A stretch of 47,591 nucleotides of DNA from a virus. Both the position numbers and the translations under genes were made by a program. The notes beneath the pieces were generated by a model. The model did not search any database. It was not told the origin of the DNA and was given only the letters and a program-made list of their open reading frames with translations. The stretch covers positions 1-47,591 of IMG/VR virus record IMGVR_UViG_2162886007_000002; one strand, given 5' to 3'. Positions within the stretch are counted from its first letter, which is position 1; every line of letters begins with the position of its first letter. This document shows, piece after piece, positions 6,032-28,308 of this stretch.

Positions 6032-6032
6032 T

Positions 6033-6066
6033 AAAAATCCCCGGAAGCGTTACGCATGCGGGGATT
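6033..6066 (-). terminator. leftward terminator overlapping the late promoter
   Basis: On the minus strand AATCCCCG pairs perfectly with CGGGGATT (8 bp, plus strand 6036-6043 and 6059-6066), followed by a U-run just before the terS start. Its upstream arm lies before the predicted late start site, so the hairpin would form only in transcripts arriving from upstream genes. Confidence 0.7.
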
Positions 6067-6092
6067 ATAGGGTGGCGGGGGTAGGGTGTCTA
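6064..6092 (-). promoter_or_regulatory. late operon promoter, TAGACA-17 bp-TATAAT
   Basis: On the minus strand TAGACA (complement of 6087-6092) is followed after 17 bp by a perfect TATAAT (complement of 6064-6069). The TAG of the -35 box is also the stop codon of the preceding gene. It would drive terminase and the roughly 20-kb structural operon. Confidence 0.75.
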
Positions 6093-6608
6093 GAGTATGC
6101 GGAACGGCTCGCTAGGAATCACCGGTTGCTTGGTCTTAGGGTTGAACCACACCGCCCGCCAGCGCCGTGAATTGACGATGTTGGGGCGTATACGGCTGCA
6201 CTCGAACGGCAGCGGTATCAGGAGTTTCACCAGCGTTGGCAGGCTGTCAACTGCTTCGGCACGGCCTTCCCAACCCGGCAGCAGCTTCGACTTGACCTTG
6301 AGCCAGCTACGACCCGCCCGGCACTTGGCGGCGGCCAGGAACGCCAACTCCAGAAAATAGGTGTTCTTCTTGGACTGGTATTGAGCGTACCAGTATTCGA
6401 AGCAATCCACGTAGCTCCAAAGCGCCATTTCGAGTAGGGTGCCGTCGTAGGGCACGTCCACAACGCGCTTAGCCTTGACGTCGGCTGCGAACTTGGCGCA
6501 GCGGTCCTGCATGGTAGTGATGTCAGGGGTCATTGAGTAGACCTTGTGAACAGGTTTGGTGCCGTCCAGGTCCAAGAGGTCGTCATCTTCCAGCGACAAG
6601 TCCATCAT
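6090..6608 (-). CDS. hypothetical protein, last gene of promoter A operon
   Basis: 172 residues from MMDLSLEDDDLLDLD. I chose 6608 over an upstream in-frame GTG because GGAG is well placed and the ATG overlaps the stop of the previous gene (ATGA). The N-terminus is acidic and the middle and C-terminus basic and Trp-rich (YWYAQYQSKKNTYFLE, RRWRAVWFNPK). No family was recognised. The gene ends in the late promoter -35 box. Confidence 0.75.
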   Translation of the reverse strand: MMDLSLEDDDLLDLDGTKPVHKVYSMTPDITTMQDRCAKFAADVKAKRVVDVPYDGTLLEMALWSYVDCFEYWYAQYQSKKNTYFLELAFLAAAKCRAGRSWLKVKSKLLPGWEGRAEAVDSLPTLVKLLIPLPFECSRIRPNIVNSRRWRAVWFNPKTKQPVIPSEPFRIL

Positions 6609-6805
6609 TGCCCAATCTCCACTTGTACACATTCTGACAAAGCAGGTGGTATAGCCCGCCGCCCCATGAAACCATCAGTCGCGGCGCTGGCTTTCTCAAC
6701 AGCGCGCTGCATGGCTTCGCATTCTACCTTCATAACGGGGGTGGAAGCCGTCCAAGTTGGGCCGGGGGCGCCAGATAACATTACCAGTACATACAAGATG
6801 CCCAT
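6605..6805 (-). CDS. small hypothetical protein, possibly exported
   Basis: 66 residues. The first 12 (MGILYVLVMLSG) are hydrophobic and could act as a short export signal or anchor, and the rest is soluble with two Cys. GGAG lies 6 bp before the ATG. It lies between two unknown genes and overlaps the next by 4 bp. No family was recognised. Confidence 0.65.
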   Translation of the reverse strand: MGILYVLVMLSGAPGPTWTASTPVMKVECEAMQRAVEKASAATDGFMGRRAIPPALSECVQVEIGQ

Positions 6806-6818
6806 GTATCGCTCCAGA

Positions 6819-7250
6819 TTAGGCCGCCTTTACAGCAAACTCAGGCAGGCGTTCGTAGTTGATATGGTAGTCAAGGCGCAGACGTTCGGCGGTCTGGCCG
6901 GTTTTGGTGTCAGTGATGTTGCCCCACCAGTAGTGGCCGTCAAACTCAACAGCCGAGTAGCTGAACCGGTCGGCCCAAACTTCTTTGGCGTACTGCATCA
7001 CAACACCGCTGCTGATGCGGGAGCCAAAGCGGAAACCGTGTAAGTTGCCATTGAGACGGCGCACTTCGATTTTAGCAGCTTGGGCCAGAACTTCGTGTTC
7101 GAAGCGCTTCGACACGACTACAGTACCGTTCTCTTTACACAGCAACCAGCGGTGGGTTTTCACCTTGGTTACGGTGAGCAGTTCGCCCGCGCAGTCCAGC
7201 TTGTAAGCGGCTGCGGCCTGGGCAACGTCAAAGGTAGAGTAGGTAGTCAT
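6819..7250 (-). CDS. hypothetical protein
   Basis: 143 residues, mixed alpha/beta composition, with no family recognised (MTTYSTFDVAQAAAAYKLDC...). It is preceded by the recurrent leader AACTCAACTGGAG, which supplies the ribosome-binding site, and by a GC-rich hairpin in the intergenic gap. That leader also precedes genes starting at 8675, 16256, 16555, 28330 and (altered) 29670, suggesting a shared translation or stability signal. Confidence 0.75.
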   Translation of the reverse strand: MTTYSTFDVAQAAAAYKLDCAGELLTVTKVKTHRWLLCKENGTVVVSKRFEHEVLAQAAKIEVRRLNGNLHGFRFGSRISSGVVMQYAKEVWADRFSYSAVEFDGHYWWGNITDTKTGQTAERLRLDYHINYERLPEFAVKAA

Positions 7251-7279
7251 GTCTTGGCGCTCCAGTTGAGTTCTACTAA

Positions 7280-7304
7280 CTCAGCCCCAGTTAAGGGGCT
7301 TGAG
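7280..7304 (-). promoter_or_regulatory. intercistronic hairpin plus conserved RBS leader
   Basis: AGCCCC and GGGGCT pair around a 6-nt loop (7283-7288 and 7295-7300, with CTCA/TGAG extending the stem). No U-run follows. AACTCAACTGGAG lies immediately downstream. The same module occurs at 16264-16306, so it is probably an RNA processing or protective hairpin rather than a terminator. Confidence 0.5.
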
Positions 7305-8499: not shown

Positions 8500-8675
8500 A
8501 GCGTAACGACCAGGATCTTACCGCGCAGCAAGTCAGCTGCATCCATATAGCTTACAGAGAGGGCGTTAGCAACTGCGTCGAGCAACGAGCGGATTGCCAT
8601 AGTTTCGCCGCTGTAGCAAGCGCCTTCGTAGTCCACCCCGTCAAACGAAACCTTGGCTTGGAAGAAAGTGTGCAT
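8496..8675 (-). CDS. small hypothetical protein, first gene of promoter B operon
   Basis: 59 residues from MHTFFQAKVSFDG. The frame is open further upstream to 8747, but that stretch contains the promoter B -10 box, so a longer protein could not be made from this promoter. The chosen start sits right after the leader CTCAACTGGAGATTCACATG, identical to that of the gene at 28330. The protein is probably soluble and no family was recognised. Confidence 0.75.
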   Translation of the reverse strand: MHTFFQAKVSFDGVDYEGACYSGETMAIRSLLDAVANALSVSYMDAADLLRGKILVVTL

Positions 8676-8696
8676 GTGAATCTCCAGTTGAGTAGG
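8673..8696 (-). repeat. 24-nt RBS leader, copy 1
   Basis: This 24-nt stretch, ending CTCAACTGGAGATTCACATG on the minus strand, is identical to 28309-28332 on the plus strand, although the proteins that follow are unrelated. It contains the ribosome-binding site and start codon. Confidence 0.9.
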
Positions 8697-8717
8697 GCAC
8701 CGCTGCCCGTGGACCGA

Positions 8718-8746
8718 ATTCTGGTGTACGTCGACAACCTTGTCCA
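8718..8746 (-). promoter_or_regulatory. promoter B (TGGACA-17 bp-CAGAAT)
   Basis: Minus strand: TGGACA (complement of 8741-8746), 17-bp spacer containing GTCGAC, CAGAAT (complement of 8718-8723). GAAAG lies immediately upstream of the -35 region as in promoters A and D. Confidence 0.8.
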
Positions 8747-8757
8747 CTTCTTTCGTT

Positions 8758-8770
8758 GACCGCTGGTCGG
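8758..8770 (-). promoter_or_regulatory. operator-like dyad upstream of promoter B
   Basis: CCGACCAGCGGTC on the minus strand, 12 of 13 identical to the sites at promoters C and D. CCG and CGG form a dyad around 5 bp. It lies 11 bp upstream of the -35 box. Confidence 0.65.
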
Positions 8771-8780
8771 GTTCTTCGGT

Positions 8781-8901
8781 AAGAACCGGAAGAACACTAA
8801 GACCACTAAATCGGCATCAGATTTGCCCTATATGTATCAGAGCACGAACTTTGCAAAATACCCCATAGAAAGGGCAGCGGTTTAGCGTTCTTCCGGTTCT
8901 T
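8781..8901. repeat. 121-bp intergenic element, copy 1
   Basis: Bounded by AAGAACCGGAAGAACACTAA (8781-8800) and its inverted partner at 8882-8901 (19 of 20 matching, with a perfect 15-bp outer part). A second 121-bp copy lies at 16857-16977 with the same arms and the shared core AGCACGAACTTTGC. No gene overlaps it. Together with 8902-8985 it fills the 310-bp gap between the first gene of operon B and the endolysin. Confidence 0.85.
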
Positions 8902-8936
8902 TTCAGCGCCGAAGCCATATCAGTATAGGTCAAAGT

Positions 8937-8987
8937 CCAGAACACTAAATCCTTCTTAGTGTTCTGGTTAGTGTACTTACGGTTCTT
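8937..8987. repeat. perfect 12-bp inverted repeat and further copy of the arm motif
   Basis: CCAGAACACTAA (8937-8948) and TTAGTGTTCTGG (8956-8967) form a perfect hairpin with a 7-nt loop. They reuse the AGAACACTAA half of the 121-bp element arm. The next 20 bp (8968-8987) are another inverted arm copy, AAGAACCGTAAGTACACTAA on the minus strand, running into the endolysin stop codon. Confidence 0.75.
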
Positions 8988-9522
8988 AAAGTACGACGGT
9001 GTCGGCCTTAATCCTGGCTGTAGGGTCCGTGAAGTTTACATCCTTAACGTAGCGTGCCCAGTTGGTGTCAAAATCCTCTTGGGTGGCCGCGCCCACAACG
9101 CTGTTCCAGTATTTCTTGTAGTACTTCCACATACCTTCTTGGTCACCGAACAGGGGCAGGGCGCCGGGAAAGCGGCGGTAGTTCATGCGAGCCAGGGCCG
9201 TGGCGTAGTTGAGGTTGCCAACCATTCCGATGAGGCTGGGGTATGCCTGCTCGGCGGGGCTGAGGAACTTAAACAGCAATTCGCGCTTGTCGCCTACCGC
9301 GAAGTTCTTGTACAGGTCTGCGATGGTGGCCGGCTCCATTTGCGGCATACCAAGTGCTGGGCCTTTCACTTGCTTAAGGTAGTCGCCGCAGTGGGATTCC
9401 TGGGCAAACGTCGCCAGTAGTAGCTGGCGGGCTGCGGAGCTGTTGTACTCAAACCCGCTGTAAATTTTCATGGCGTCCAGCACCGGGAAAATTATGTAGT
9501 CGTGTAGGACCTGAGGATTCAT
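8986..9522 (-). CDS. endolysin, lysozyme/transglycosylase-like
   Basis: 178 residues with no signal peptide. LLLATFAQESHCGDYLKQ (about 34-51), with a probable catalytic Glu in QES, is followed by GPALGMPQMEP, the pattern of a group of phage peptidoglycan hydrolases. It would need the adjacent holins to reach the cell wall. It reads leftward, divergent from the holin-spanin cassette beginning 81 bp away. GGAG lies 9 bp before the ATG. A TATAAT (complement of 9540-9545) in the divergent gap may be its -10 box, without a convincing -35. Confidence 0.85.
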   Translation of the reverse strand: MNPQVLHDYIIFPVLDAMKIYSGFEYNSSAARQLLLATFAQESHCGDYLKQVKGPALGMPQMEPATIADLYKNFAVGDKRELLFKFLSPAEQAYPSLIGMVGNLNYATALARMNYRRFPGALPLFGDQEGMWKYYKKYWNSVVGAATQEDFDTNWARYVKDVNFTDPTARIKADTVVL

Positions 9523-9603
9523 GTGTACTATCTCCGTAAATTATAGTAGGGGTAGCCTTTTGAGGCTGATGAATCATAACACAACAACTCAGGGGGCTGA
9601 AGG

Positions 9604-9930
9604 GTGGATACAGAAGAGTTTAGAAAGTGGCTGTCGGCGCCGGGGGTTATAGCCCTAACGGCGGCGGCGGTGCGCTTCATGATCACAGGGAAGGAGGAAA
9701 GGCCGGGGAGGGTCTTGGGCTACTTAGTGGCTGCGGGTGGACTCGCTTGGCTGCTCGGCCCTTATCTATCGAAACGCGACTACGGCCCCGAGGAAATTGC
9801 ACTGGCAAGCTGCATCCTCGGATTTGTTATACCCAACTTGCTTGGCGGTGTTATGGGACTGGGGGCGCAGTTCGCTAAAGATCCGGCAGGCTTCGTTATT
9901 GACATCCTTTCGAGGTTCAAAAAGAAATGA
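9604..9930 (+). CDS. holin
   Basis: 108 residues from a GTG start preceded by a purine-rich site. Three hydrophobic segments (about 13-28, 38-56 and 64-86) and a Lys-rich C-terminus (SRFKKK) match a class I holin that permeabilises the inner membrane at lysis. It is the first gene of the rightward lysis cassette, overlaps the next gene by 4 bp, and lies opposite the endolysin. Confidence 0.82.
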   Translation: MDTEEFRKWLSAPGVIALTAAAVRFMITGKEERPGRVLGYLVAAGGLAWLLGPYLSKRDYGPEEIALASCILGFVIPNLLGGVMGLGAQFAKDPAGFVIDILSRFKKK

Positions 9931-10259
9931 CACTACTGTTCGCTTTGGATACATTGAGCTTACTCGCCGCGCTCTGTACGGCGTTGTACACCGTCTTCAT
10001 CATGATCAAGTGGCCGCCTGGGCGCGACCCGAGACCCATGGCCCCGCTGTTGGCTTTGGCGCTCGCCTTCATCGTGCTGAAGATGCACCCGTACATGGGT
10101 TGGGAGGACGCTTACGGGAAGCTACGCGACTACGCTTGGCGCGGGTGGTACATCGTGGCGTTCATTGAGTTCATCTTGCTGATTCGCCTGTTTGGTCGGC
10201 GTCGTGATGGTTGCGGCGTTGGGGCGGCCAGCGCTGTCATTAAGAAGGGGCGCAAATGA
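9927..10259 (+). CDS. second holin-like/antiholin-like membrane protein
   Basis: 110 residues with hydrophobic segments near 2-27, 38-52 and 74-88 and a basic C-terminus (GRRRDG...KKGRK). It lies between holin and spanin with 4-bp overlaps on both sides. Tandem small membrane proteins here often form a holin and antiholin pair; which one triggers lysis cannot be told from sequence. Confidence 0.72.
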   Translation: MTLLFALDTLSLLAALCTALYTVFIMIKWPPGRDPRPMAPLLALALAFIVLKMHPYMGWEDAYGKLRDYAWRGWYIVAFIEFILLIRLFGRRRDGCGVGAASAVIKKGRK

Positions 10260-10786
10260 TGGAAGCCCTCGTAGCGCGGTATCTGTTGCCTGTTGTAGCG
10301 GTTGCTGCGCTACTCGGGGGCGGTTGGCTTTATCTCCACAACTTGCACAGCGATATCACCGACCTGGAAGGGCAGGTGCAGACCCAAACCGACCGCGCAA
10401 ATCTGGCTGTACATGTTGCAGCGAGCAGCACGGCCACAACCCAAATTGTCACCAAAACCGTGGAAAAGGTTGTCGAAGTTAAGGTGAAAGGTGACACCAT
10501 CGTACAGAAGGTGCCTGTTTATGTTACGCAAAAGGCTGATGCCAATTGTGTTGTCCCTCTTGGCGCTGTCAGCGTGCTCAACGCCGCCGCCCGCAACGTG
10601 CTACTTCCCGGAAGTGCCGGCGCAATTCAAGAAGCCCCGAGCGGCGTTGCCCTTAGTACCGTTACCGGCACCGCAGCTGAATGGGCCGGGCGTTACTGGC
10701 AGCTAGCTGCGGAATACGACGGGTTTTTGGAATGGGTCGAAACCCAGGGCGCGTTGGCGCGGGGAGGGGGTTTACAGCAGAAATGA
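10256..10786 (+). CDS. Rz: i-spanin (Rz-like)
   Basis: 176 residues: one N-terminal membrane anchor (about 9-25, LLPVVAVAALLGGGWLYL) followed by a periplasmic region including a probable coiled coil (about 30-75). The class spans the periplasm with an o-spanin to fuse inner and outer membranes. A second gene with a lipobox is nested in another frame (10521-10706), which makes the call firm and implies a Gram-negative host. Two adjacent ATGs are possible starts. Confidence 0.87.
   Translation: MMEALVARYLLPVVAVAALLGGGWLYLHNLHSDITDLEGQVQTQTDRANLAVHVAASSTATTQIVTKTVEKVVEVKVKGDTIVQKVPVYVTQKADANCVVPLGAVSVLNAAARNVLLPGSAGAIQEAPSGVALSTVTGTAAEWAGRYWQLAAEYDGFLEWVETQGALARGGGLQQK
10521..10706 (+). CDS. 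Rz1: o-spanin (Rz1-like lipoprotein) nested within Rz
   Basis: 61 residues, entirely inside the Rz gene in a different frame. MLRKRLMPIVLSLLALSAC gives a basic start, hydrophobic core and lipobox (LSAC); the cysteine is followed by STPPP, and the rest is Pro-rich (PAQFKKPRAALPLVPLPAPQ). That is the hallmark of Rz1. GAAGG lies just before the ATG. Confidence 0.88.
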   Translation: MLRKRLMPIVLSLLALSACSTPPPATCYFPEVPAQFKKPRAALPLVPLPAPQLNGPGVTGS

Positions 10787-16263: not shown

Positions 16264-16306
16264 TCTCCAGTTGAGTTGTACTGACGAAGCCCCAGTGAAG
16301 GGGCTT
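16264..16306 (-). promoter_or_regulatory. intercistronic hairpin plus conserved RBS leader, second copy
   Basis: AAGCCCC (16287-16293) pairs with GGGGCTT (16300-16306) around a 6-nt loop, and AACTCAACTGGAGATA follows on the minus strand. The same arrangement occurs at 7262-7300. Confidence 0.5.
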
Positions 16307-16324
16307 GGTAAGTGTAGCGGGGTA

Positions 16325-16555: not shown

Positions 16556-16589
16556 GGCCGTGCTCCAGTTGAGTTGTCTTACAGGGCAA

Positions 16590-16618
16590 AGTTTTGCCGA
16601 AGCTGTCGACGGTGTCCA
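16590..16618 (-). promoter_or_regulatory. promoter C (TGGACA-17 bp-AAAACT)
   Basis: Minus strand TGGACA (complement of 16613-16618), 17-bp spacer containing GTCGAC, AAAACT (complement of 16590-16595). The -10 sits inside a palindrome GGCAAAACTTTGCC (16586-16599). The weak -10 suggests a need for an activator. It heads the long leftward accessory operon. Confidence 0.65.
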
Positions 16619-16639
16619 CCTTTTTCTTCGCGAAAACAT

Positions 16640-16657
16640 GACCGCTGATCGGATTTA
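16640..16657 (-). promoter_or_regulatory. operator-like dyad upstream of promoter C
   Basis: TAAATCCGATCAGCGGTC on the minus strand is identical to 28236-28253 (plus strand) upstream of promoter D. It lies 21 bp from the -35 box, against 11 bp at B and D. Confidence 0.7.
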
Positions 16658-16856
16658 CGGTCGACAGTCAAAGCTTCTTAAGAAGGGCCTCGGTAAACTG
16701 GCGCTGTATACCCAAGAAGGGGTTTCGTTACACAGCGACGTCGACAGCTGGCTTCTTCTTCTTTGGCGCTTCTTCAGGGCGTAAGAAGAAGAACAGCGAG
16801 CCGGCGGGGCGTCTTGCACCCTAGCGTCAAAGAAGGGCCTCGGATCGACAGTTTAT
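16658..16856. other. non-coding stretch with direct repeats
   Basis: No convincing gene. AAGAAGGGCCTCGG occurs twice as a direct repeat (16680-16693 and 16830-16843), and GTCGAC occurs twice. The stretch is rich in CTTCTT and AAGAAG tracts. It separates promoter C from the second 121-bp element. Confidence 0.6.
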
Positions 16857-16977
16857 AAGAACCGTAAGAACACTAAGACCGCTATTTCCGACTGAAAATC
16901 GTGCAATATGGGTCGGAGCACGAACTTTGCTTTTCATTCCATAGTAAGGGGAACGATTTAGCGTTCTTCCGGTTCTT
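16857..16977. repeat. 121-bp intergenic element, copy 2
   Basis: Arms AAGAACCGTAAGAACACTAA (16857-16876) and the inverted partner at 16958-16977 (18 of 20 matching). It aligns without gaps to 8781-8901 at roughly 70 percent identity by eye, with conserved AGCACGAACTTTGC and CCATAG blocks. No gene overlaps it. The remaining 16978-17118 holds further GGTTCTT and AAGAACC copies and no gene. Confidence 0.85.
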
Positions 16978-17118
16978 ATCGGTCTTGGAGCCTATCAGGA
17001 TTAGGGTCACAATAAGAACTATAACTCTACTTTACAGTTCTTCTTATAGTTCTTATGGTTCTTACTTCTTCTTTACCAAACCCACCAAAGAACCGCAAAA
17101 CTATCAAATTTTGGCCGT

Positions 17119-17146
17119 GAAAAAGGGCACCCGAAGGCACCCTTTT
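17119..17146 (-). terminator. leftward terminator of the primase gene
   Basis: Minus strand AAAAGGGTGCC, UUCG loop, GGTGCCCTTTT and a U-run: an 11-bp stem including two wobble pairs, just after the primase stop at 17165. Confidence 0.88.
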
Positions 17147-17164
17147 GCGGTTCTTCCGCCACTA

Positions 17165-19792
17165 CTAACTTTCCCACTGCCCGCTTTCGCTGCTCTCAAC
17201 TTCATTTTGCCACTGCTTATAACGACTCACGAAATGCCGCGCTTCAATGTGGAAGTCGTCAAGATCATCATGAAAGTGGGTCCAGTGAAACCCTTCTGCA
17301 TAGGTTCGAATCTGCTTAGCCGTGAGCCCTGGCATGAGCCAAACCCGGTCCCAAAACTGGACCCCGTGTTTGCCTGTTCTGCGGAACCGGCTTTCCAGCG
17401 CTGTACCGCCACCCAGGCGCGTGAATCCCATAGACTCAAGAGTGTTTGAAAAGTTGCGGCGCGTATGGGCGTCCCCTCCTGATAACTGCTCTGCCAACCG
17501 TTGCTCGTACTGATTAATACTGCTGAACGCCCGCGTGATACTAATCAAATCCGATTCGTACATCAAAGGGGACGTTACATCAAAGGGATTACATGGCTGG
17601 TCCAGCGCTCGGGCTATTGCACAGTGTGGCCAGGAATCGTTTTGCATCTCCATCTCTTTAGTGGCAGCTGTCTTCAGTGGTTCGTTTGGGTCGAACGGCG
17701 TGTTGCGCCAATCCCATTCCTTGAAGAAGTAACGCACCGCTGCTTTGTTGTCCTCATCGTCCAACCAGTCGCACAGGTTGTCATAATAAGCCCGCTCCAG
17801 CTGACGCTTCGGCCCTTCCACCATCACATAGCGGCGGTCACCGGGTTCCAGCTGCATGCGGTCTTCCGGGTTGCGAAAGGCTATCTTGAGACTAAAGTTC
17901 GGCACTTCCTGGTAGTCTTTCTGCATGGCGCGGCGCTGCACGTTCGGGTTAGCAGTGTACTTCTTCAAGAAGTTGTACACCGTGTCGCCGCCGTCGCGTT
18001 TGGTGGGGAACTTGAACTCTTCAAATACGTCAACGTGCGCGTTGCTAATCCAACCCTTCTTGTCGTCCACCAGCATCTCAGCGGTGACTTCCTGCACATT
18101 GGACTCACCGAAGATGGCAGCAAACACACGCTCCCGCAGAATCGACTTACCAATGCCCTTGCCACCCTCAATGATGAACATGTACTTAATCAGCTTGCCC
18201 GGTTGCTGGTACGTGTAAGCAATCATGCTGATGAACCAATCGCGCTCGGCCTTGTTGGGTATCAGGTACTCAAGGTGTTTGAGCAGCGGTTTGACGTTGC
18301 CCTTGGTGATGTCGCCACGCGGCACACGGTAGCGGTTGAGGTACTTGACATCCTTGTATTCGTACACATCGTTCTCAGGCTTGCCTGGGTGGTAGCCCTT
18401 GGCCGAGGCAGTGAGCAGCAGCCGCTTGTCAAAGGCGTATTCACGACCTAACTTAAGCTCTGCGAACACCGCAAAACCGACGCGCTCGGCGCATTGGTCG
18501 TACAGCTCTGCAATGAGGTTCTTAAACGCCGACTTGGGCCGAGGCGTGCCGTCTTCCAGGTCAATGAGGCTGTCGTCCGACAGAATCCACACATACTTTT
18601 GCAGGTGGCGCTTGAGCAGCTTGTCAACGCGCTCGCGCACTTCATTAAGTTCTTCCGCATCACGGGCAACCACTTCCTCGGTCAACTCTTTATAGTGTTC
18701 CTGCACACTTTTAAGAGTGACACCGCGACGTTGCTTAATCAGGTCGAACAACTCTTTGCGTTCCGCCGGGTTGAGCTTGTCCTTGCTGTTGGCCAACTGC
18801 GACATGACCGCGTCGTACACTTCCTTGGACTCAAGGGGCGACGACATAATGGAACTGCGGTGGTGTTCGTAGCCGAATGCGTTGTTGTTGCGCTCGAACG
18901 ACACCCAAACGCGGCGCAGGCCATCCAGCTGTTCTTCATCAAGCGGTTCATCCAGCTTGTCGTTCATGGCCTCAATCTGGACCATAATGTTCTCAAGCGA
19001 CTCGCCGTTATCCTTCTGCCAGCGCATGAACCCCACAAACTGGTTGTGCCGCTCGCCAGCTTCAAACTGCACGCCGGGCTTCATTTCAGCGGGTGACACC
19101 GCGTAGCTGCGACCTGGGTTTGTGCCAGCCATCATCTTGCCAATGGCCAATGCTGTTTCCGGGTCCAAGTGCTCGCCCTTGGTGTTTGCCCAGAAAATAG
19201 CCTCATCGGCGCGGTCTTCAGGGGCGCTGTGCCAGTACATGGGCTGCGACGCCACCTTTGAACACTCATCGTAGGTCTGCGCCACGCCTAAGAACTCGGC
19301 AAAGCCCAACACCACAAACGGCTGGTCACGCGGGCTCACCGGCTCTTTATATGGAACCACCACGCGAAACTTATTTTCCTTGCCGGCGGTCAGCGGGTCG
19401 TAGCTGAAAGTTGTGTACACCGCGTAGGCCAAGCCCTCGGCGTCCAACTTGTCACGAATTTCCTCAGGCGGCGGGGCGTCCGGGGAGTCAATGTCCAAGA
19501 CCACGCCGTAGAAGGCTTCAACACCGTTGTTGCGGCGGTGCATTTCACCGTTCTCGGCTTTGTCCGTGAAATTGGCGAACACAAAGTAGGGGCACAGCTC
19601 CTTTTTCTTGGCAATTTTGAGCTTAGACAATGCGGCTGCGACATCTGCCCACGTTACACTCCTAACCTTTACGGTTGCGTGGACCTTCCGTTTTTCTACT
19701 CCCTTGACGTTCTCAATGTGCTTAATCCCATGCCACAATTGTGGCGCTGTCGCAATCTTAAGTGCCGGGACACCTTTACGCGCATCAGTCAT
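17165..19792 (-). CDS. primase-helicase (primpol-like N-terminus, VapE-type SF3-like ATPase)
   Basis: 875 residues. The N-terminal part (about 65-215) has FYGVVLDIDSPDAPP and YTTFSYD...KFRVVVPY, resembling a primase-polymerase domain with an acidic metal-binding site. The ATPase domain (about 535-640) has Walker A EGGKGIGKS near 540-548 and an acidic DVFEEF stretch, as in virulence-associated E / SF3 helicases. It would unwind and prime the phage origin. It is a monocistronic leftward gene ended by its own terminator and divergent from the other replication genes. CGGAG lies before the ATG. Confidence 0.87.
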   Translation of the reverse strand: MTDARKGVPALKIATAPQLWHGIKHIENVKGVEKRKVHATVKVRSVTWADVAAALSKLKIAKKKELCPYFVFANFTDKAENGEMHRRNNGVEAFYGVVLDIDSPDAPPPEEIRDKLDAEGLAYAVYTTFSYDPLTAGKENKFRVVVPYKEPVSPRDQPFVVLGFAEFLGVAQTYDECSKVASQPMYWHSAPEDRADEAIFWANTKGEHLDPETALAIGKMMAGTNPGRSYAVSPAEMKPGVQFEAGERHNQFVGFMRWQKDNGESLENIMVQIEAMNDKLDEPLDEEQLDGLRRVWVSFERNNNAFGYEHHRSSIMSSPLESKEVYDAVMSQLANSKDKLNPAERKELFDLIKQRRGVTLKSVQEHYKELTEEVVARDAEELNEVRERVDKLLKRHLQKYVWILSDDSLIDLEDGTPRPKSAFKNLIAELYDQCAERVGFAVFAELKLGREYAFDKRLLLTASAKGYHPGKPENDVYEYKDVKYLNRYRVPRGDITKGNVKPLLKHLEYLIPNKAERDWFISMIAYTYQQPGKLIKYMFIIEGGKGIGKSILRERVFAAIFGESNVQEVTAEMLVDDKKGWISNAHVDVFEEFKFPTKRDGGDTVYNFLKKYTANPNVQRRAMQKDYQEVPNFSLKIAFRNPEDRMQLEPGDRRYVMVEGPKRQLERAYYDNLCDWLDDEDNKAAVRYFFKEWDWRNTPFDPNEPLKTAATKEMEMQNDSWPHCAIARALDQPCNPFDVTSPLMYESDLISITRAFSSINQYEQRLAEQLSGGDAHTRRNFSNTLESMGFTRLGGGTALESRFRRTGKHGVQFWDRVWLMPGLTAKQIRTYAEGFHWTHFHDDLDDFHIEARHFVSRYKQWQNEVESSESGQWES

Positions 19793-19879: not shown

Positions 19880-19910
19880 ATGCCCGTCTTACAGTGGTTA
19901 AGTGCCGGGG

Positions 19911-19939
19911 AGTATACAGCTCGGCGCTGCCTTTGTCCT
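19911..19939 (-). promoter_or_regulatory. primase promoter, AGGACA-17 bp-TATACT
   Basis: Minus strand AGGACA (complement of 19934-19939) and TATACT (complement of 19911-19916), giving a leader of about 110 nt before the primase start. Confidence 0.6.
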
Positions 19940-20062
19940 ATCCTCATGCCCTGCCCCGCTTACACACTGCCATTCCTTAAGACTATTTATACACGGGTGC
20001 CGCCCACGGCCTAACCGTTGCCGGGTGCTTACACAAACTGTGAAGAAAAGAGCAACAACCGC

Positions 20063-20091
20063 TTGACAAGTGAAGAAGAACGGCACAAACT
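20063..20091 (+). promoter_or_regulatory. rightward replication promoter, TTGACA-17 bp-CAAACT
   Basis: A perfect TTGACA at 20063-20068 and CAAACT at 20086-20091. A 62-bp leader leads to GGAGCAACAAC before the ATG at 20153. The rest of 19940-20062 is GC-rich with several short inverted repeats and no gene. Confidence 0.7.
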
Positions 20092-20152
20092 TGCCGCACG
20101 TCTTCGACGTTCCCCGGCGCTCAAGCCGACCAACTGAATATGGAGCAACAAC

Positions 20153-20764
20153 ATGTCCCTGCAACTCGGCCTCATCGTCCTGCCATCCGACACCGCTGAA
20201 CTGAACAAAGTCCTGGAAGCGCTCTCCAAGTTGGGCGTTTCTTCCGTCGCTGCTCCTGCCGTTGTTAAAGCTGCTGCCGGCAAAGGCAAAACTGCCCCGG
20301 TCGTTGAAGAAGAACCGGAAACCGAAACCCTGCCAGCCGTGACCGCTGACCAAGTCAAAACCGCCATGACCCGCGTTCGTGACGAACTGGGTGACGAAAC
20401 CATCACCGAACTGCTGACCGCCTTCGGCGCCACCAAACTGAAAGACGTTGCCAAAGACGACTGGTCGGCCCTGGTTGCTGCCGCCAACGCCGCGCTGAAC
20501 CCTGCCGCTGGTTCGGGTGACGACGATGACGGTTTCGGCCTGGACGACGACGGTGATGACGGTTTCGGCCTGGACGACGATGACGGCGCAGCTGAAGTTG
20601 ATGCTGAAGAAGTCAAAGTCAACGTGCAAACCTATGCCAAGAAGCATGGCAAGGAAAAGGCTCAGGCCATCCTGACCAAGCACGGCTTGAACACCGTTCG
20701 CGGTCTGGCTTCCGCTGCCAACGACGTGCTGGCCAAAATCAACGCCGCCGCTCTCAAACTGTAA
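20153..20764 (+). CDS. duplicated-domain protein with acidic linker, replication module
   Basis: 203 residues. Two similar helical domains (about 62-115 and 152-200, each with a pattern like LL..FGA..LKDV) flank an acidic linker (about 121-145) with repeated DDDDGFGL units. The linker resembles the acidic tail of the ssDNA-binding protein encoded at 23340. Similar proteins sit beside ssb genes in other phages, so a role in loading or recombination is plausible, but no function is known. It has its own promoter and terminator, so it is probably highly expressed. Confidence 0.78.
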   Translation: MSLQLGLIVLPSDTAELNKVLEALSKLGVSSVAAPAVVKAAAGKGKTAPVVEEEPETETLPAVTADQVKTAMTRVRDELGDETITELLTAFGATKLKDVAKDDWSALVAAANAALNPAAGSGDDDDGFGLDDDGDDGFGLDDDDGAAEVDAEEVKVNVQTYAKKHGKEKAQAILTKHGLNTVRGLASAANDVLAKINAAALKL

Positions 20765-21432: not shown

Positions 21433-21638
21433 CCCTTAAAGCTGATGACCGTTGTAAATGGCCCTTTGTGGCTGAAATAGCTACAGTTCCAGTTGTGTAT
21501 CTGGAACTCGGCGGTAAAATGGTGCAAGTGCTGGAGCTTAAAAACAGCGCTCCGACTACTATGTTGGTGAGTAGCGACATGTTCGAAGCCATGCTAAAGG
21601 AGTTGCGCAATGGCAAAGTCGCCAGCAAAGAAGTCTAA
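21429..21638 (+). CDS. 69-residue hypothetical protein
   Basis: Starts MTLKADDRCKWPFVAEIA and ends with a helix (SSDMFEAMLKELRNGKVASK). The ATG overlaps the preceding stop, and its end overlaps the nuclease gene by 29 bp and carries that gene's GGAG site. No family was recognised. Confidence 0.65.
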   Translation: MTLKADDRCKWPFVAEIATVPVVYLELGGKMVQVLELKNSAPTTMLVSSDMFEAMLKELRNGKVASKEV

Positions 21639-23019
21639 GCCAGCTGGCCCCAGCGGGCACAAACGCTTCGGCGCGTCCAACTCCAAACAGTGGTTGACTT
21701 GTACCGGCGCCCCCGCCCTGATTGAGTCGCTGCCACCCCACGAACGCAAGCGCTCTGACACCATTTGGAGCAAGCGCGGCACATGCGCTCACGCCGTTGG
21801 TGAAATGTCACTGATTTCCTACACCAACAACCCCGCGCATGCGACTGAACCGGAAGACTACCTAGGGCAGCTCGTTGAGGGCGTAGTAGTTGACCAGGAA
21901 ATCGTTGACGGTGCTCAAGTCTACGTTGAGTGGGCACGCAACATCATTGACAAGGCCGACCACGTTGAGATTGAGCGCGGCGGCAGCCTGTACAACTACA
22001 TCACCAGTGTGCAAGGCGAGACGGGCGAGTTCTTATCGCTCAACGGCAACGACTACGGCGGCACGGGTGACTTTGTCGGCGCGCAGATGTTTGGCACGCT
22101 GGACGTAGGGGACTACAAAAACGGGCGTGGCTATGTAGACGCCAACGGCAATACGCAAATGCTCATCTATGCGCTTGAAGCGTTGGTCGGCCTGGGTGCT
22201 GAGTACGACTTTGACGAAGTGCGTATGACCATCATCCAGCCCAATGGGCCGGGCGAATCCATCCGCCCCTGGACGGTGACGCCTGAGTACGTGTTTGAAT
22301 GGGCAATGACCGTACTGCTCCCAGGCGCAGAGCGGGTGATTAAAGCCATTCACGACTTCGCGGATATACAAAGCGCCGAAGATGAGCAGGATTGGGCGGC
22401 ATCGTACCTTGTCGCAGACCTGGAAGGGCATTGCCACTTCTGCCCAGCCAAGCCCCGCTGTGTTGCGGCGCTGAACTCAACTTGCGACAACGCACTGATA
22501 GAGTTCGAAGAAGTCATTGACATGCTTGGCGATGAGCCTGATTCGCTGGCGTTGCGGTTGCCAAACCTGGCGCTCATCACCCCCGAGCAAGAGGCGTTGC
22601 TGTTACAACACGCTGATGGCATCATCGACTTTATCAAGGCAGTGCAGGAGCGGGCGCATGCAAAAGCTGAACGGGGCGAGCGCATCGAAGGCTACAAACT
22701 GGTTGAGAAAGGCGGCGCCCGGCGCAAGTACATTGCCGCTGATGATGCGATTAAGACCGAATGCAAGAAGTTGGGCCTTGTACCGCATGACTATATGGAT
22801 GCGCCAACTCTAAAAAGCCCCGCACAGCTGGAGAAGTCCTTTAAGGCCAAGGGTGTAAACCCTAAACTGGTCAAGGTGTTCATGGATAAGCACGTCGGCA
22901 AAAACGAAAGCGGTGTTGCGTTGGTTAAGGAATCCGACCCGCGCCAGCCTATCCAGTGTAAGCTTGAGCATGAGTTTGCGCACTTGGTCGACAAACCGGA
23001 CGACTGGCTGGAATTGTAA
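21610..23019 (+). CDS. DUF2800 family PD-(D/E)XK nuclease with probable Fe-S cluster
   Basis: 469 residues. The nuclease core has GTGDFVGAQM and GDYKNGRGYVDANGNTQMLI (about 150-190), the usual acidic-Lys-Gln pattern. A cluster CHFCPAKPRC (about 275-284) with a Cys near residue 58 could bind an iron-sulfur centre, as in Cas4 and AddB nucleases. It stands with SSB and DNA polymerase, so it probably resects DNA ends in replication or recombination. Start 21610 has AAGGAG ahead. Confidence 0.85.
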   Translation: MAKSPAKKSKPAGPSGHKRFGASNSKQWLTCTGAPALIESLPPHERKRSDTIWSKRGTCAHAVGEMSLISYTNNPAHATEPEDYLGQLVEGVVVDQEIVDGAQVYVEWARNIIDKADHVEIERGGSLYNYITSVQGETGEFLSLNGNDYGGTGDFVGAQMFGTLDVGDYKNGRGYVDANGNTQMLIYALEALVGLGAEYDFDEVRMTIIQPNGPGESIRPWTVTPEYVFEWAMTVLLPGAERVIKAIHDFADIQSAEDEQDWAASYLVADLEGHCHFCPAKPRCVAALNSTCDNALIEFEEVIDMLGDEPDSLALRLPNLALITPEQEALLLQHADGIIDFIKAVQERAHAKAERGERIEGYKLVEKGGARRKYIAADDAIKTECKKLGLVPHDYMDAPTLKSPAQLEKSFKAKGVNPKLVKVFMDKHVGKNESGVALVKESDPRQPIQCKLEHEFAHLVDKPDDWLEL

Positions 23020-23021
23020 AG

Positions 23022-23050
23022 TTGACAACCGCACCCTGCTTCGGTAGAGT
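23022..23050 (+). promoter_or_regulatory. ssDNA-binding protein promoter, TTGACA-17 bp-TAGAGT
   Basis: A perfect TTGACA (23022-23027) just after the nuclease stop, 17 bp, then TAGAGT (23045-23050). Confidence 0.75.
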
Positions 23051-23339
23051 GCGTGGCTCAAGGGTGTGAAGGTCTTCGGACTTGCCACCTTGGTTGGCGG
23101 ACCACAAAAACCGTTAGCCCGGACGGGGGCTCTAGAAAGTGGTTTAACCCACACCGCCCAAACCCGAACGTCAGTGGTTATTGCGAAAACGGGTGCAACA
23201 ACGGTGTGGTAGGGCACCGGCCAGCAATGGCAACGACGGCAAAACACTCGTCCTGAAGCGTCGTCACCTACCAGCCCTTAAGTGGGAGAAAGCAGCGAAC
23301 CCGCGAATACGCGAACCACACTATACAGAGAATCAGACC
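23051..23339 (+). other. long 5' leader of the ssDNA-binding protein gene
   Basis: About 285 nt between the promoter and the start codon, unusual in this compact genome. It is GC-rich with several local inverted segments (for example GCCCGGACGGGGGC near 23116-23129) and only a weak ribosome-binding site. No convincing gene lies inside; an in-frame extension to 23181 has no SSB-like content. It may fold into a regulatory RNA. Confidence 0.55.
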
Positions 23340-24047
23340 ATGGCAGATGCAAAACCAAATCCCCGTCGCGGCCTCCTGGGCCCAGTTCGTGGCTCGTACG
23401 TAGTACTGGCCAACCCAAAAGCGAACGACCACGGGGAATTGCGTTACTCCCTCCAGATGTTGTTCCCCAAGAAAGACAAAGCCCTCATCGCCAAAGCTGA
23501 AAAGCTCATCAAGGCGGCTATTTTGGCCTGCCCGCTGGCTCAGGGCGACCCGGAAAAAGCTCGCAAGTTGTGGAACAACCCGAAGTTCGGCAAGCCTATG
23601 CGTGACGCCGAAGCCGAGGACCGTGAAGGCGCTGAATACAAAGATCACTTGTTCGCCAACGTCGGCACCAACGACAAGAAAGGCCGCCCTGGCTGCATCT
23701 TGAAGAACGGTACGAAAATTACCGACGCCGACGAAGTCATGGACCACTTCTACAGTGGTGCGTGGTTCCAGGTTTCTGTTACCGCGTTCTACTACGACAA
23801 CAGCGGTAACAAGGGCATTGGTTTCGCGCTGAACAACGTCATGAAGTGGAAAGACGACACCCGCCTTGACGGCAGTGTTGATGCTGAAGACGAATTTGCT
23901 GAGCTGATTAGCGAAGACGATGAAATCCCTTTCGGTGACGACGACGGTTTTGGCGACGATGAGCCGCCGGCCCGTGGCAGTAAGACCAAACCCGTCAAAC
24001 AGGCAGCGACCACCGCTGACGACGATGATTGGGGTTTGGACGACTAA
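23340..24047 (+). CDS. ssDNA-binding protein (DUF2815 family)
   Basis: 235 residues from MADAKPNPRRGLLGPVRGSY. It matches DUF2815 phage proteins with an OB-like core (LLGPVRGSYVVL, FYSGAWFQVSVTAFYY, GIGFALNNVMKWKDD) and an acidic C-terminal tail ending DDDDWGLDD, the kind SSBs use to recruit partners. It lies between the DUF2800 nuclease and DNA polymerase, a conserved phage order. It has its own promoter, a long leader and a terminator, so it is probably strongly and separately controlled. Confidence 0.88.
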   Translation: MADAKPNPRRGLLGPVRGSYVVLANPKANDHGELRYSLQMLFPKKDKALIAKAEKLIKAAILACPLAQGDPEKARKLWNNPKFGKPMRDAEAEDREGAEYKDHLFANVGTNDKKGRPGCILKNGTKITDADEVMDHFYSGAWFQVSVTAFYYDNSGNKGIGFALNNVMKWKDDTRLDGSVDAEDEFAELISEDDEIPFGDDDGFGDDEPPARGSKTKPVKQAATTADDDDWGLDD

Positions 24048-24065
24048 GTAACCCGGCAATACATT

Positions 24066-24090
24066 AATCCCTGCTTCGGCGGGGATTTTT
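24066..24090 (+). terminator. rightward terminator with UUCG loop
   Basis: AATCCCTGC, TTCG, GCGGGGATT and a T-run just after the ssDNA-binding protein gene. Confidence 0.9.
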
Positions 24091-24091
24091 G

Positions 24092-24120
24092 TTGCGCGTT
24101 TAACAGCCGTCGTTTATACT
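24092..24120 (+). promoter_or_regulatory. candidate DNA polymerase promoter, TTGCGC-17 bp-TATACT
   Basis: The -10 is strong and the -35 moderate. It lies directly after the terminator and 40 bp before the polymerase start. Confidence 0.6.
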
Positions 24121-24159
24121 GGCCGGACCTCCCGCGCTGGTATGCTATATGGAGCATTC

Positions 24160-26325
24160 ATGAGTAGCCACAACCCGAAGCTACAGAAAGCCATTGAAAT
24201 GGCCTACAACCCCCGACAACGCCACGCGCTGGATATCCTCAATACGCGTATTGAAGACGCCAAACGCCGCTTGGCTGCCCCGCGCAAGATCATCGACTTT
24301 GAAACCCGCTGCCTCATCGACTTGAAGAAGGTTGGTGCGTATAAGTACAGCCAGCATAAGAGCTGCGAAGTACTTATGATGAGTTACAACTTGACTGGCA
24401 AACCCGGTGACACAAAGTTGTGGCAAATGGGTGACAAACCACCCCAGGGCCTGTTCACCATGCTTAAGAGTGGTGCCATCATGGGCGCCTTCAACTCTTA
24501 TTTCGAGTACTGCATCTGGAAACACGTCTGCGTTGCCAAGCTGGGCTGGCCGGACATCGAACTCGAGGACATGATTGACGTAGCCGACAAGTGCAAGGCC
24601 CTGGCGCTGCCGGCGGGTTTGGCGGATGCTGGCGAAGTGCTGCAACTCGACATGCCTAAAGATGAGCGCGGCAAGGCTCTTATCGGGCTGTTCTGCAAGC
24701 CCAAGAAAGACGGCACATTTAACGACCGGGACACGCACCCGGTTGAGTGGCAGGAGTTCTGCGAATACGCCATTCGCGACACCGACGCCGAACTTGAAAT
24801 TGATATCATGCTGCCTGACCTCAACCCCCTTGAGCAGCTGACAGCATGGCTAACCAATCGCATGAACTGGCGCGGCATCTACATTGACCAAGGCGCAGTG
24901 CGGGCAGCTGATAAGCTTGCGGATCAGGTCAAGGTGCAGTACAACGCCGAGGCCGCCAAGCTCAGCGGCGGTGCCTTCCTCAAATGCACCCAACGGGCCA
25001 AGGTAAAGGCGTGGCTGGCGTTGCAAGGGCTGGTGATGCCCAACATGCAGGGCAAGACCATCACCAAATGGCTGCGCAAGGACTTGAAACCTCATGTTCG
25101 CCGCATGCTTGAGCTGTACACGGTGGCCGGTTCCTCATCAGTTGCCAAGTTCAGCTCAATGCTCAACTACGTCTGCGCTGACGGGCGGGTGCATGAGCTG
25201 CTGAACTACCATAAAGCTAGGACCGGGCGCTGGGGTGGTAAGGGTATACAGATTCAGAACTTCCCGCGCCCCGTGCTGCCCAAGGGCACCGACTACGAAG
25301 ACGTGTTGCGCATGCTCAAGAAGGGCAGCGTGGCAGAGCTGGAAGCCTACGCCCGCAAACTTGAGGCCATGGATAAGAAGAACCGCACCGCCAAAGGCAA
25401 GGCTACATGGTGGACGTTCAACGTTATGCAAATCCTCACGTCCAGTATCCGGTCTGTGCTGTGCGCCATGCTCGGCCACCACTTCAAGAGCGCTGACTAT
25501 TCGGCTATTGAAGCGCGGTTCTTGGTATGGGAAGCCGGTGACGAACGCGCCTTGCAGTTGTTCCGCGAAGGCAAAGACGTGTACCTTGACATGGCGGCTG
25601 AAATCTACGGAGTGCCGTTTGACACGCTCGACAAGGAGTCAGACGAACGACCGCTGGGCAAGGAAACCATTTTGGGCGCGGGCTACGGCATGGGCCATGA
25701 GAAATTCCAAACCCGCTGTGATGAGGTAGCCAACATCCAGATTGACATTGCTATGGCGAAGAAGTCAATCAACACCTACCGCACCAAGTACAAAAGTGTG
25801 GCCGGGCCGAACGGGTTGTGGAAGAAGTTAGAAGCCGCAGCCAACGAAGCCGTTATGCACCCAGGTCGGGTAACCGAGTATCGGGGCTTCAAGTACAAAA
25901 TGGCCAAGTACGGCAAGATGCCCATTTTGCTGTGCCGTTTCCCGTCGGGGCGTTGCACTGGCTACCCATACCCGCGTGTCGTTGAGATTGACAAGTGGGG
26001 CAACGGCAACATGATGTATGAGTTGCGCTACATGGGCCACGACAGTAAAACCCATAAATGGGTTGAGTTGAGCACCTACGGCGGTAAGCTCACGGAGAAC
26101 AACACCCAGGGCGGCAGCCGCGACCTGATGGCGTTCGGTATGTTGCTGCTCGACTGCGTTGGCTACTTCCTCATCATGACCGTACACGATGAGGCGGCCA
26201 GCGAAGATGAGGACGATTTCGGCAGCCTTGAGGATTTCGAAATGCTGCTCTGCACCCTCCCGCGTTGGGCGGTGGGGCTCCCGGTAACAAGTGAGGGTTG
26301 GCAAGGCCCGAGGTACAGAAAATGA
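24160..26325 (+). CDS. DNA polymerase, family A, with 3'-5' exonuclease domain
   Basis: 721 residues from ATG 24160, where GGAG is well placed (an in-frame ATG at 24142 lacks a site). The exonuclease motif is DFETR (about 46-50). Polymerase motifs follow: RTGRWGGKGIQIQNFPRP, motif A DYSAIEARFL, motif B RPLGKETILGAGYGMG and motif C TVHDEAA. This is a replicative phage Pol I type enzyme. It overlaps the next small gene by 4 bp. Confidence 0.95.
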   Translation: MSSHNPKLQKAIEMAYNPRQRHALDILNTRIEDAKRRLAAPRKIIDFETRCLIDLKKVGAYKYSQHKSCEVLMMSYNLTGKPGDTKLWQMGDKPPQGLFTMLKSGAIMGAFNSYFEYCIWKHVCVAKLGWPDIELEDMIDVADKCKALALPAGLADAGEVLQLDMPKDERGKALIGLFCKPKKDGTFNDRDTHPVEWQEFCEYAIRDTDAELEIDIMLPDLNPLEQLTAWLTNRMNWRGIYIDQGAVRAADKLADQVKVQYNAEAAKLSGGAFLKCTQRAKVKAWLALQGLVMPNMQGKTITKWLRKDLKPHVRRMLELYTVAGSSSVAKFSSMLNYVCADGRVHELLNYHKARTGRWGGKGIQIQNFPRPVLPKGTDYEDVLRMLKKGSVAELEAYARKLEAMDKKNRTAKGKATWWTFNVMQILTSSIRSVLCAMLGHHFKSADYSAIEARFLVWEAGDERALQLFREGKDVYLDMAAEIYGVPFDTLDKESDERPLGKETILGAGYGMGHEKFQTRCDEVANIQIDIAMAKKSINTYRTKYKSVAGPNGLWKKLEAAANEAVMHPGRVTEYRGFKYKMAKYGKMPILLCRFPSGRCTGYPYPRVVEIDKWGNGNMMYELRYMGHDSKTHKWVELSTYGGKLTENNTQGGSRDLMAFGMLLLDCVGYFLIMTVHDEAASEDEDDFGSLEDFEMLLCTLPRWAVGLPVTSEGWQGPRYRK

Positions 26326-26507
26326 ACAAGGAATTGGTACGTGTTATGGCTGATATATCAGCTGTAAACGCTGAAATTGAAGGCATGAAGGCAATGAACG
26401 CCGTTGCTGCACTGCGGAACGAATATCCTGTTTATACTCATGACGACTTCTTCCGTGTGTCCGAACGGCTGAATATACTCGGGCAGGAGGCCATTCAATA
26501 TGGCTAA
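26322..26507 (+). CDS. 61-residue hypothetical protein
   Basis: MNKELVRVMADISAVNAEIE begins a helical protein between polymerase and VRR-NUC, overlapping both (4 and 8 bp). The coupling ATG (ATGA) is preferred over an in-frame start 24 bp upstream. It could be a small polymerase- or nuclease-associated factor; no family was recognised. Confidence 0.68.
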   Translation: MNKELVRVMADISAVNAEIEGMKAMNAVAALRNEYPVYTHDDFFRVSERLNILGQEAIQYG

Positions 26508-26808
26508 GGCTAAAGTTGAGAAAATCGTTGAAGACCAGTTCGTTGAAGAGGCGTTTCGGCGTGGCTTCCTAGCGCTGAAAATGGAAATCCCAGGCTGGCG
26601 CAACTGGCCTGACCGTCAAGTGTTGCTGGGCCATGGGTACGTGTACTTCATTGAGTTCAAGCGTCAAGGTGAAGTGCCTCGGCCCGGCCAGCTGCACCGC
26701 CATGACAAACTGCGCGAAAAAGGCTACAGTGTCTACGTGTGTGACACCTTGGCCGACGCGCTTGAGTCGTTGGAAATTGAACTTGGGAAGATGGCGCTAA
26801 TCATATGA
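26500..26808 (+). CDS. VRR-NUC domain nuclease
   Basis: 102 residues, a stand-alone VRR-NUC domain. Glu near 18 (FVEEAF), PGWRNWPDRQVLL (about 31-43) with catalytic Asp, and YFIEFKRQGEVPRPGQ (about 49-65) with the E-X-K core are all present. Such small phage nucleases cut branched DNA and sit beside an SNF2-like helicase, as here (4-bp overlap with the next gene). Confidence 0.93.
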   Translation: MAKAKVEKIVEDQFVEEAFRRGFLALKMEIPGWRNWPDRQVLLGHGYVYFIEFKRQGEVPRPGQLHRHDKLREKGYSVYVCDTLADALESLEIELGKMALII

Positions 26809-28238
26809 AGACGTTCGTACCTCACATGTATCAGGTGAAGGCTATTGCATTGGGGGTACGACGCGCTAACATGGCGTTCTTCTTGGACCCAGGGATGGGC
26901 AAGACCAGCATTTTCCTACGCATCCTCAAGAACCTCATACGCATGAAGCAGGCCAAAGCCGCATTGGTGGTCGCACCGCTGCGCCCCTGCTATACCGTGT
27001 GGCCTAAGGAGGTTAAGAAGTGGACGTTTGCCCTTGGCATGAAAGTGCGAGTGCTACACGGCCCGAACAAGTTATGGGAGTTGAGCCAACCGGCGGATAT
27101 TTATGTAATCAACCCCGAGGGGCTCAAGTGGCTCTTCACCGTGGCACTCAAGGGCAAACGCAACTGGCCCTTTGACGTGCTGGCGGTTGATGAGTCCGGC
27201 AAGTTCAAGAACCCTGACAGCGCCCGGCTGAAGATCCTCAAGCCTCGGCTGCCCAAGTTCACCCGCCGCTACATCTTCAATGGCACACCAGCGCCAAACG
27301 GCCTTGAAGACTTGTGGGGGCAGTTCTTAATTGTCGACATGGGTGTTAAGTTTGGCAAGACCATCGCTGATTATCGGTTGCAGTACTTCAAGCGCGCCGG
27401 GTACAAGGGCAAGGGCTACGAAATCGCGTCAGACCGGCACAAGGACTTCATCTACCGCCGCGCCGCTCATATGTGCATCGTGATGGAAGCCAAGGACTAC
27501 TTGGATATGCCCGAGTTGGTGCTAGTCCGGCGTGAAGTGCAGCTACCCACCCAGGCGCGGCTGCACTACCAACAGGTGGAAGAGGAACTGTTCACTGTTA
27601 TCGCAGAGGATGGCATTGAAATTAAGAACTCGGCGGTTGCAACGGGTGCTTGCCGGCAGGTAACAGGCGGAGCGTTGTATCAACCGAGGCAAGAGGGTGA
27701 AGCGCCTGTGCCGCAGCACCGCCGCCCATTCTACAAACTGCATGATGCGAAGACCGAAGCCCTGATTGACCTGATCGATGAGCTACAGGGTAAGCCGCTG
27801 TTGGTCGCCTATGACTTCCATCACGAACTTACCCGCATAAGAGAAGCCGTAAAGAAGGCGTTTAAGTACGACATCGCACACATCGGCAGCGGTGTTACCC
27901 CGCAACAGGGTATAGCCATTGAGAACGCATGGAACAAAGGCCAAATAAGAGTGCTGGCCGGGCATCCGGGGAGTATCAGCCACGGCCTTAACTTACAAGA
28001 AGGCCCAGGTGCTGACATCTGTTGGTACACCCAAACCTGGGACTTGGAACGATACTGGCAGTACATACAACGGCTTTGGCGCCAAGGGCACAAGGGCCGG
28101 TGTGTGCGGGTCCACCACTTGATAGCTACCGGGACTATCGATGAAGTGATGATGGACCGCCTTGATATAAAGACGCGGAACCAGGCCGACTTCAAGACAG
28201 CCGTTACCCGCTACCGCAACATGAAACTCAGCGCATAA
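26805..28238 (+). CDS. SNF2-type DEAD/DEAH helicase
   Basis: 477 residues. Walker A FLDPGMGKTS (about 26-35), motif II VDESGKFKN (about 128-136, DESG in place of DEAH), and motif VI QRLWRQGHKGR (about 422-432) are visible. It probably remodels DNA with the preceding VRR-NUC nuclease. The stop codon TAA is part of the upstream element of promoter D. Confidence 0.92.
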   Translation: MKTFVPHMYQVKAIALGVRRANMAFFLDPGMGKTSIFLRILKNLIRMKQAKAALVVAPLRPCYTVWPKEVKKWTFALGMKVRVLHGPNKLWELSQPADIYVINPEGLKWLFTVALKGKRNWPFDVLAVDESGKFKNPDSARLKILKPRLPKFTRRYIFNGTPAPNGLEDLWGQFLIVDMGVKFGKTIADYRLQYFKRAGYKGKGYEIASDRHKDFIYRRAAHMCIVMEAKDYLDMPELVLVRREVQLPTQARLHYQQVEEELFTVIAEDGIEIKNSAVATGACRQVTGGALYQPRQEGEAPVPQHRRPFYKLHDAKTEALIDLIDELQGKPLLVAYDFHHELTRIREAVKKAFKYDIAHIGSGVTPQQGIAIENAWNKGQIRVLAGHPGSISHGLNLQEGPGADICWYTQTWDLERYWQYIQRLWRQGHKGRCVRVHHLIATGTIDEVMMDRLDIKTRNQADFKTAVTRYRNMKLSA

Positions 28239-28253
28239 ATCCGATCAGCGGTC
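28236..28253 (+). promoter_or_regulatory. operator-like dyad upstream of promoter D
   Basis: TAAATCCGATCAGCGGTC, identical over 18 bp to the site upstream of promoter C; 11 bp from the -35 box. Confidence 0.7.
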
Positions 28254-28264
28254 GACGAAAGTGG

Positions 28265-28293
28265 TGGACAACCCCACCGCCGTCGACCAGAAT
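28265..28293 (+). promoter_or_regulatory. promoter D (TGGACA-17 bp-CAGAAT)
   Basis: TGGACA 28265-28270, 17-bp spacer with GTCGAC next to the -10 box, CAGAAT 28288-28293 followed by TCG. GAAAGTGG precedes it as in promoter A. Confidence 0.8.
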
Positions 28294-28308
28294 TCGTTTT
28301 GCAAGACA

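Follow-up and report, generated by a model that had tools for sequence, protein, structure and literature searches.

The best-supported reading of the sequence analyzed here, with a probability of roughly 0.7, is that this phage carries a bipartite iteron origin of the P4/PICI type beside the gene for a PrimPol-SF3 primase-helicase. The window, by which we mean the whole 47,591-nucleotide stretch (virus record IMGVR_UViG_2162886007_000002), has a terminal repeat of 51 bp (1-51 = 47541-47591), as expected for a complete circular assembly. The putative origin comprises two copies of an iteron element, one of them in a non-coding block bounded by the minus-strand primase gene and a small minus-strand gene. 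The relevant features are:

8673-8773, minus strand: promoter-like module TGGACA-N17-CAGAAT beside element 1
8780-8988, minus strand: element 1, the other copy of the iteron element, in the same orientation as element 2 and 8.1 kb from it
16556-16655, minus strand: degenerate promoter-like module, aligned by eye, with the Shine-Dalgarno leader of the gene that follows
16656-16855, no strand: window-specific spacer with two AAGAAGGGCCTCGG copies, GTCGAC sites and a hairpin (16753-16793)
16856-17064, minus strand: element 2 (crr-like), facing arrays of AAGAACNNT units spaced by about 9 bp, identified as the densest cluster in the genome and by self-match
16856-16882, plus strand: array arm A, TAAGAACCG TAAGAACAC TAAGACCGC, units at 16856, 16865 and 16874
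16883-16957, no strand: spacer between the facing arrays of element 2, 57% AT
16958-16986, minus strand: array arm B, facing arm A, units at 16963 and 16972
17009-17064, no strand: outer units (17013 plus; 17037, 17049 and 17058 minus) and a small inverted repeat (AAGAACTAT / ATAGTTCTT)
17120-17146, minus strand: terminator-like hairpin downstream of the primase gene, with a T run and a TTCG loop, by eye
17165-19792, minus strand: proposed initiator of 875 aa, a primase carrying an SF3/VapE-type helicase domain (PHROG, Pfam)
21610-28238, plus strand: exonuclease, annealing protein, DNA polymerase, VRR-NUC-sized ORF (102 aa, assigned by size) and SNF2-type helicase

A preliminary description had reported a gene-free block of about 460 bp at this site. 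The block is indeed gene-free, but since the small gene to its left probably starts at an ATG near 16555, behind a Shine-Dalgarno site, it is longer than first given, about 609 bp (about 16556-17164). The 14-bp direct repeat reported there was recovered as AAGAAGGGCCTCGG, present exactly twice (at 16680 and 16830), as were two GTCGAC sites (16660 and 16740; a further copy at 16605 falls just beyond the interval then considered) and the AAGAACC/GGTTCTT copies (16857, 16971, 17057, 17088 and 17149). The reported 121-bp element fits the part of element 2 that holds the facing arms (about 16856-16979), but the repeat shared with 8780-8988 is longer, at 209 bp. Neither the 14-bp repeat nor any GTCGAC site falls within this 209-bp element, and the 200 bp at 16656-16855 gave no match in a translated comparison with the relative G001 described below. 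The GTCGAC sites at 16605 and 16660 lie in or beside the promoter-like module that recurs at 8673-8773 and 28236-28332, and GACCGCTGATCGGATTTA is common to the 16556-16655 module and 28236-28253. No match was obtained when the window DNA was compared with cultured phages by similarity search.

In a self-match, elements 2 and 1 aligned with 72% identity over 211 columns (209 bp, E 4e-25). Counting units with at most one mismatch to TAAGAAC, we found 10 per 230 bp in element 2, the genome maximum, and 9 in element 1, compared to 4 in the next-best interval and a genome mean of 0.7; the spacing of the units in both elements is mostly 9 bp. TAAGAAC at 16856 also forms the top 7-mer cluster of the genome, with a score of 12.5, while 60 shuffles under a dinucleotide model gave a mean of 2.9 and a maximum of 9.6; the repeat cluster in element 2 is not a product of chance. 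Arms A and B of element 2 are 22 nt each and 91% complementary, with 81 nt between them. The AT content of the spacer exceeds the 44% of the genome modestly, and the 150-bp stretch with the highest AT content in the genome (16964-17113, 63% AT) overlaps element 2. The cumulative GC skew of the window turns at a peak at 17006, and that of G001 peaks at 33217, about 0.6-0.9 kb past its primase-side element; in both genomes its sign is the reverse of that conventional in bacteria, and the skew was not counted as evidence for an origin.

The proposed initiator matched PHROG primase families at E 1e-28, and a domain search detected DUF5906 and a VapE-like domain, so that the gene product has an SF3-type helicase fused to a primase, as a P4-type initiator requires. 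Compared with P4 alpha, a profile match spanned 103 columns with a probability of 85%. The Pfam search did not recover a TOPRIM domain, and the profile of the C-terminus matched neither the origin-binding domain of P4 nor any Pfam family. A helix-helix-strand pattern, looked for as a sign of a C-terminal winged-helix origin-binding domain, was present only in AlphaFold models of low confidence, one for the whole primase and one for its C-terminus. The terminator-like hairpin is conserved in G001; the window hairpin was not listed by the terminator scanner. The replication genes at 21610-28238 are ordered as in Casjensviridae. A near-exact 30-bp direct repeat (20519-20590, core GATGACGGTTTCGGCCTGGACGACGA) was also noted within the ORF at 19898-20683.

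This arrangement closely resembles that of P4, whose record places alpha at 4636-6969 (minus strand), a terminator at 4604-4628, crr at 4291-4590 and ori at 9086-9809. Both genomes have, in order, a primase-helicase gene, a terminator or terminator-like hairpin, an iteron region 3´ of the gene and a second iteron locus some kilobases away. The type 1 repeats of P4 crr are 9 bp apart and occur in both orientations, facing each other as in the window, and the same repeats recur in the distant ori; the window likewise has short direct and inverted iterons, at one locus 3´ of the primase-helicase gene and at another kilobases away. The DUF5906 helicase core is common to P4 alpha and the window primase, whereas the primase domains differ: P4 alpha combines a TOPRIM/Zn primase with a Pox_D5 winged helix, while the window protein has a PrimPol-type N-terminus and no detected Pox_D5. 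The repeat units also differ (AAGAACNNT in the window, GGTGAACA in P4). Since no TOPRIM domain was recovered, we do not place the window system within the P4 alpha system and regard it only as working like it.

The origin of PICIs directly follows rep on its 3´ side and has an AT-rich region between two iteron sets, an organization said to occur in no other known bacterial replicon (PMC6092414). SaPI Rep and Cch2 each bind to repeats situated downstream of the gene that encodes them (PMC7581432). Element 2 has the PICI layout, with two iteron sets around an AT-richer region 3´ of the initiator gene (PMC6092414). However, PICIs are satellites with a single described origin locus, whereas the window is a phage of about 47 kb with its own polymerase and two loci. 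If the window origin is real, it would qualify the statement that the PICI organization is unique (PMC6092414).

An origin had been suggested in the preliminary description from the adjacency of the block to the primase-helicase gene, and this suggestion appears strengthened by the facing 9-bp arrays, by G001, by P4 crr/ori and by arrays in cultured phages. The sequence most likely to matter is 16856-17064 together with the second copy at 8780-8988, which the preliminary description had left out. We propose that elements 1 and 2 probably form the two halves of one replication origin. The PrimPol-type primase with its SF3 helicase domain would most likely bind the AAGAACNNT units, assemble as facing oligomers on the inverted arrays, melt AT-richer DNA lying between these arrays or next to them, and prime synthesis for the phage's own polymerase. 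Element 2, 3´ of the primase gene, would take the role of P4 crr and element 1, 8 kb away, that of P4 ori, and the two loci may cooperate. On the specific point that the units are bound by the phage's own primase-helicase, we lean slightly towards yes.

Using the primase as query, we searched for relatives and obtained G001 (L004, IMGVR 3300047322_000336, 48,345 bp) and G002, whose sequence stops inside the primase gene. In G001, units are present 3´ of the primase (32273-32500) and at a second locus about 8.5 kb away (40766-40968), with densities of 7 and 5 per 230 bp and 3 in the next interval. Thus, the window phage and G001 each have only two unit clusters, in matching places. When the window elements were aligned with those of G001, they were 68% identical to each other and 61% (c1 to g1_b) and 56% (c2 to g1_a) identical to their positional counterparts. 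That the two window copies are closer to each other than to their counterparts suggests that both are read by one genome-specific factor, though gene conversion could also have produced this likeness within the genome. Searches for further relatives through the polymerase, a sheath-like protein, the element core and GTDB genomes did not provide a complete new one. A AAGAACNNTAAGAACNNTAA pattern search of viral contigs gave many AT-rich contigs among the matches listed. Two contigs, L021 and L104, were rejected as relatives, as their loci look like simple tandem repeats; in L104, AAGAACGAT-type 9-bp repeats at 5160-5210, a simple tandem repeat by its look, precede a small ORF.

We also surveyed the region 3´ of the homologous primase in 12 cultured phages, which were picked from the tblastn list before their repeats had been seen. 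Clear facing arrays were present in five (phiAxp-2, AH2, AhaSv, pEp_SNUABM_08 and LP.1), each with a different repeat sequence; in AhaSv the array sits beyond a small ORF 3´ of the primase. The E21 region was ambiguous, and an array was absent from the stretch examined 3´ of the primase in RDJL3 and in KPP23, even though KPP23 has the closest cultured primase by score. For MD04, D63, phiM5 and ctvy9321, a dense-cluster scan placed the top cluster elsewhere than 3´ of the primase. With clear arrays in 5 of 12, an array 3´ of the primase is not a general rule. A de novo 7-mer scan placed the top cluster just 3´ of the primase in the window, G001, P4, AH2, pEp_SNUABM_08 and LP.1, as did a scan with 8-mers in phiAxp-2. 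The tabulated unit spacings are a description of spacing and not a significance test, since the core sequences were taken from the arrays themselves. The Casjensviridae phages AH2, phiAxp-2 and pEp_SNUABM_08 share with the window both the gene order primase, exonuclease, annealing protein, polymerase, VRR-NUC and helicase and the repeat arrays 3´ of the primase; the repeat sequence, in contrast, changes from phage to phage, and the scan recognized no second same-unit cluster in them. Such arrays may have been described in an earlier publication.

The alternative nearest to an iteron origin is a stem-loop origin of the pRN1 kind, in which the initiator recognizes a foldable structure and not the repeated unit. 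In pRN1, the origin takes the form of a large stem-loop located 3´ of a PrimPol-SF3 gene, an arrangement that the authors of that work also proposed for phage BIP-1 (PMC4234260); the window shares with pRN1 ORF904 both the PrimPol and SF3 initiator and a large stem-loop 3´ of its gene (PMC4234260). The 22-nt arms and 81-nt loop of element 2 resemble the 21-nt stem and 58-nt loop of pRN1, and in the minus-strand sense element 2 folds better than shuffles (z -5.7), as do all four elements of the window and G001 (z -5.7, -7.3, -4.6 and -4.5). Among facing units, the variable letters match the stem partner at 16 of 18 positions (P 0.0007 by random reassignment), although units and partners were assigned by hand after the folds had been seen and the fourth element was left out, so that the test was not blind. 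Palindromy thus seems to be maintained in addition to the unit. However, the pairing partners vary between elements, while the unit sequence and the roughly 9-bp phase are kept, and pRN1 was reported without iterons, whereas the window stems are made of them. We consider recognition of structure alone unlikely; as it would still be an origin, it differs from the iteron origin only in the recognition signal, and the probabilities of the two overlap.

Arrays are also known among phage operators, and the units could instead bind a phage repressor or activator controlling promoters next to the two elements: a promoter-like module is found on the strand of element 1 at a distance of about 40 bp, and a degenerate one follows element 2. 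We regard this as quite unlikely, given that promoters of the same family at 7632 and about 28270 have no units nearby, that the G001 promoter is >600 bp beyond the primase-side element, and that facing 22-bp arrays by a primase gene fit P4 and PICI origins better.

The folding and the 16 of 18 matching positions would also be compatible with a structured regulatory RNA transcribed from the minus strand, but the opposite strands tested fold well too (z -4.8 and -6.7), as inverted iterons must. The outermost TAAGAACNNTAAG units are invariant across the four elements despite inconsistent pairing, the terminator-like hairpin separates the primase gene from element 2, and Rfam and tRNA/tmRNA searches gave no match, all of which make such an RNA improbable. 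A packaging, partition or recombination site, which can carry inverted repeat arrays, is very improbable, as no ParB- or integrase-like neighbor was recognized in the set of proteins searched, and about 3 kb separate element 1 from the terminase-like gene (4081-5658, identified only by eye).

Returning to the bipartite iteron origin, we tentatively extend it, at somewhat less than even odds, to a PrimPol-SF3 initiator that uses two distant iteron-built stem-loop origins, joining the P4/PICI and pRN1 models, a principle that some of the Casjensviridae and related phages would share, each with its own unit. Origins usually go unassigned in phages known only from metagenomes, and a rule of facing arrays of ~9-bp units 3´ of a PrimPol-SF3 gene would allow origin prediction in part of the group. 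The pair of initiator and unit, varying from phage to phage, would also be a natural system for the evolution of initiator specificity.

Several other repeated sequences were noted. Copies of TGGACA-N17-CAGAAT occur in the window at 7632 (minus), 8746 (minus), about 28270 (plus) and about 16615 (minus, degenerate) and in G001 at 33214, 41019 and 42091, with a box like GACCAGCGGTCGACGAAA ahead of some. A 43-bp repeat (88%) at 7260-7302 and 16265-16307, in front of genes, combines a small hairpin with the Shine-Dalgarno stretch ACTCAACTGGAG, which is found again in G001. Finally, two plus-strand ORFs at 9927-10786, holin- and spanin-like by appearance, lie amid minus-strand genes.
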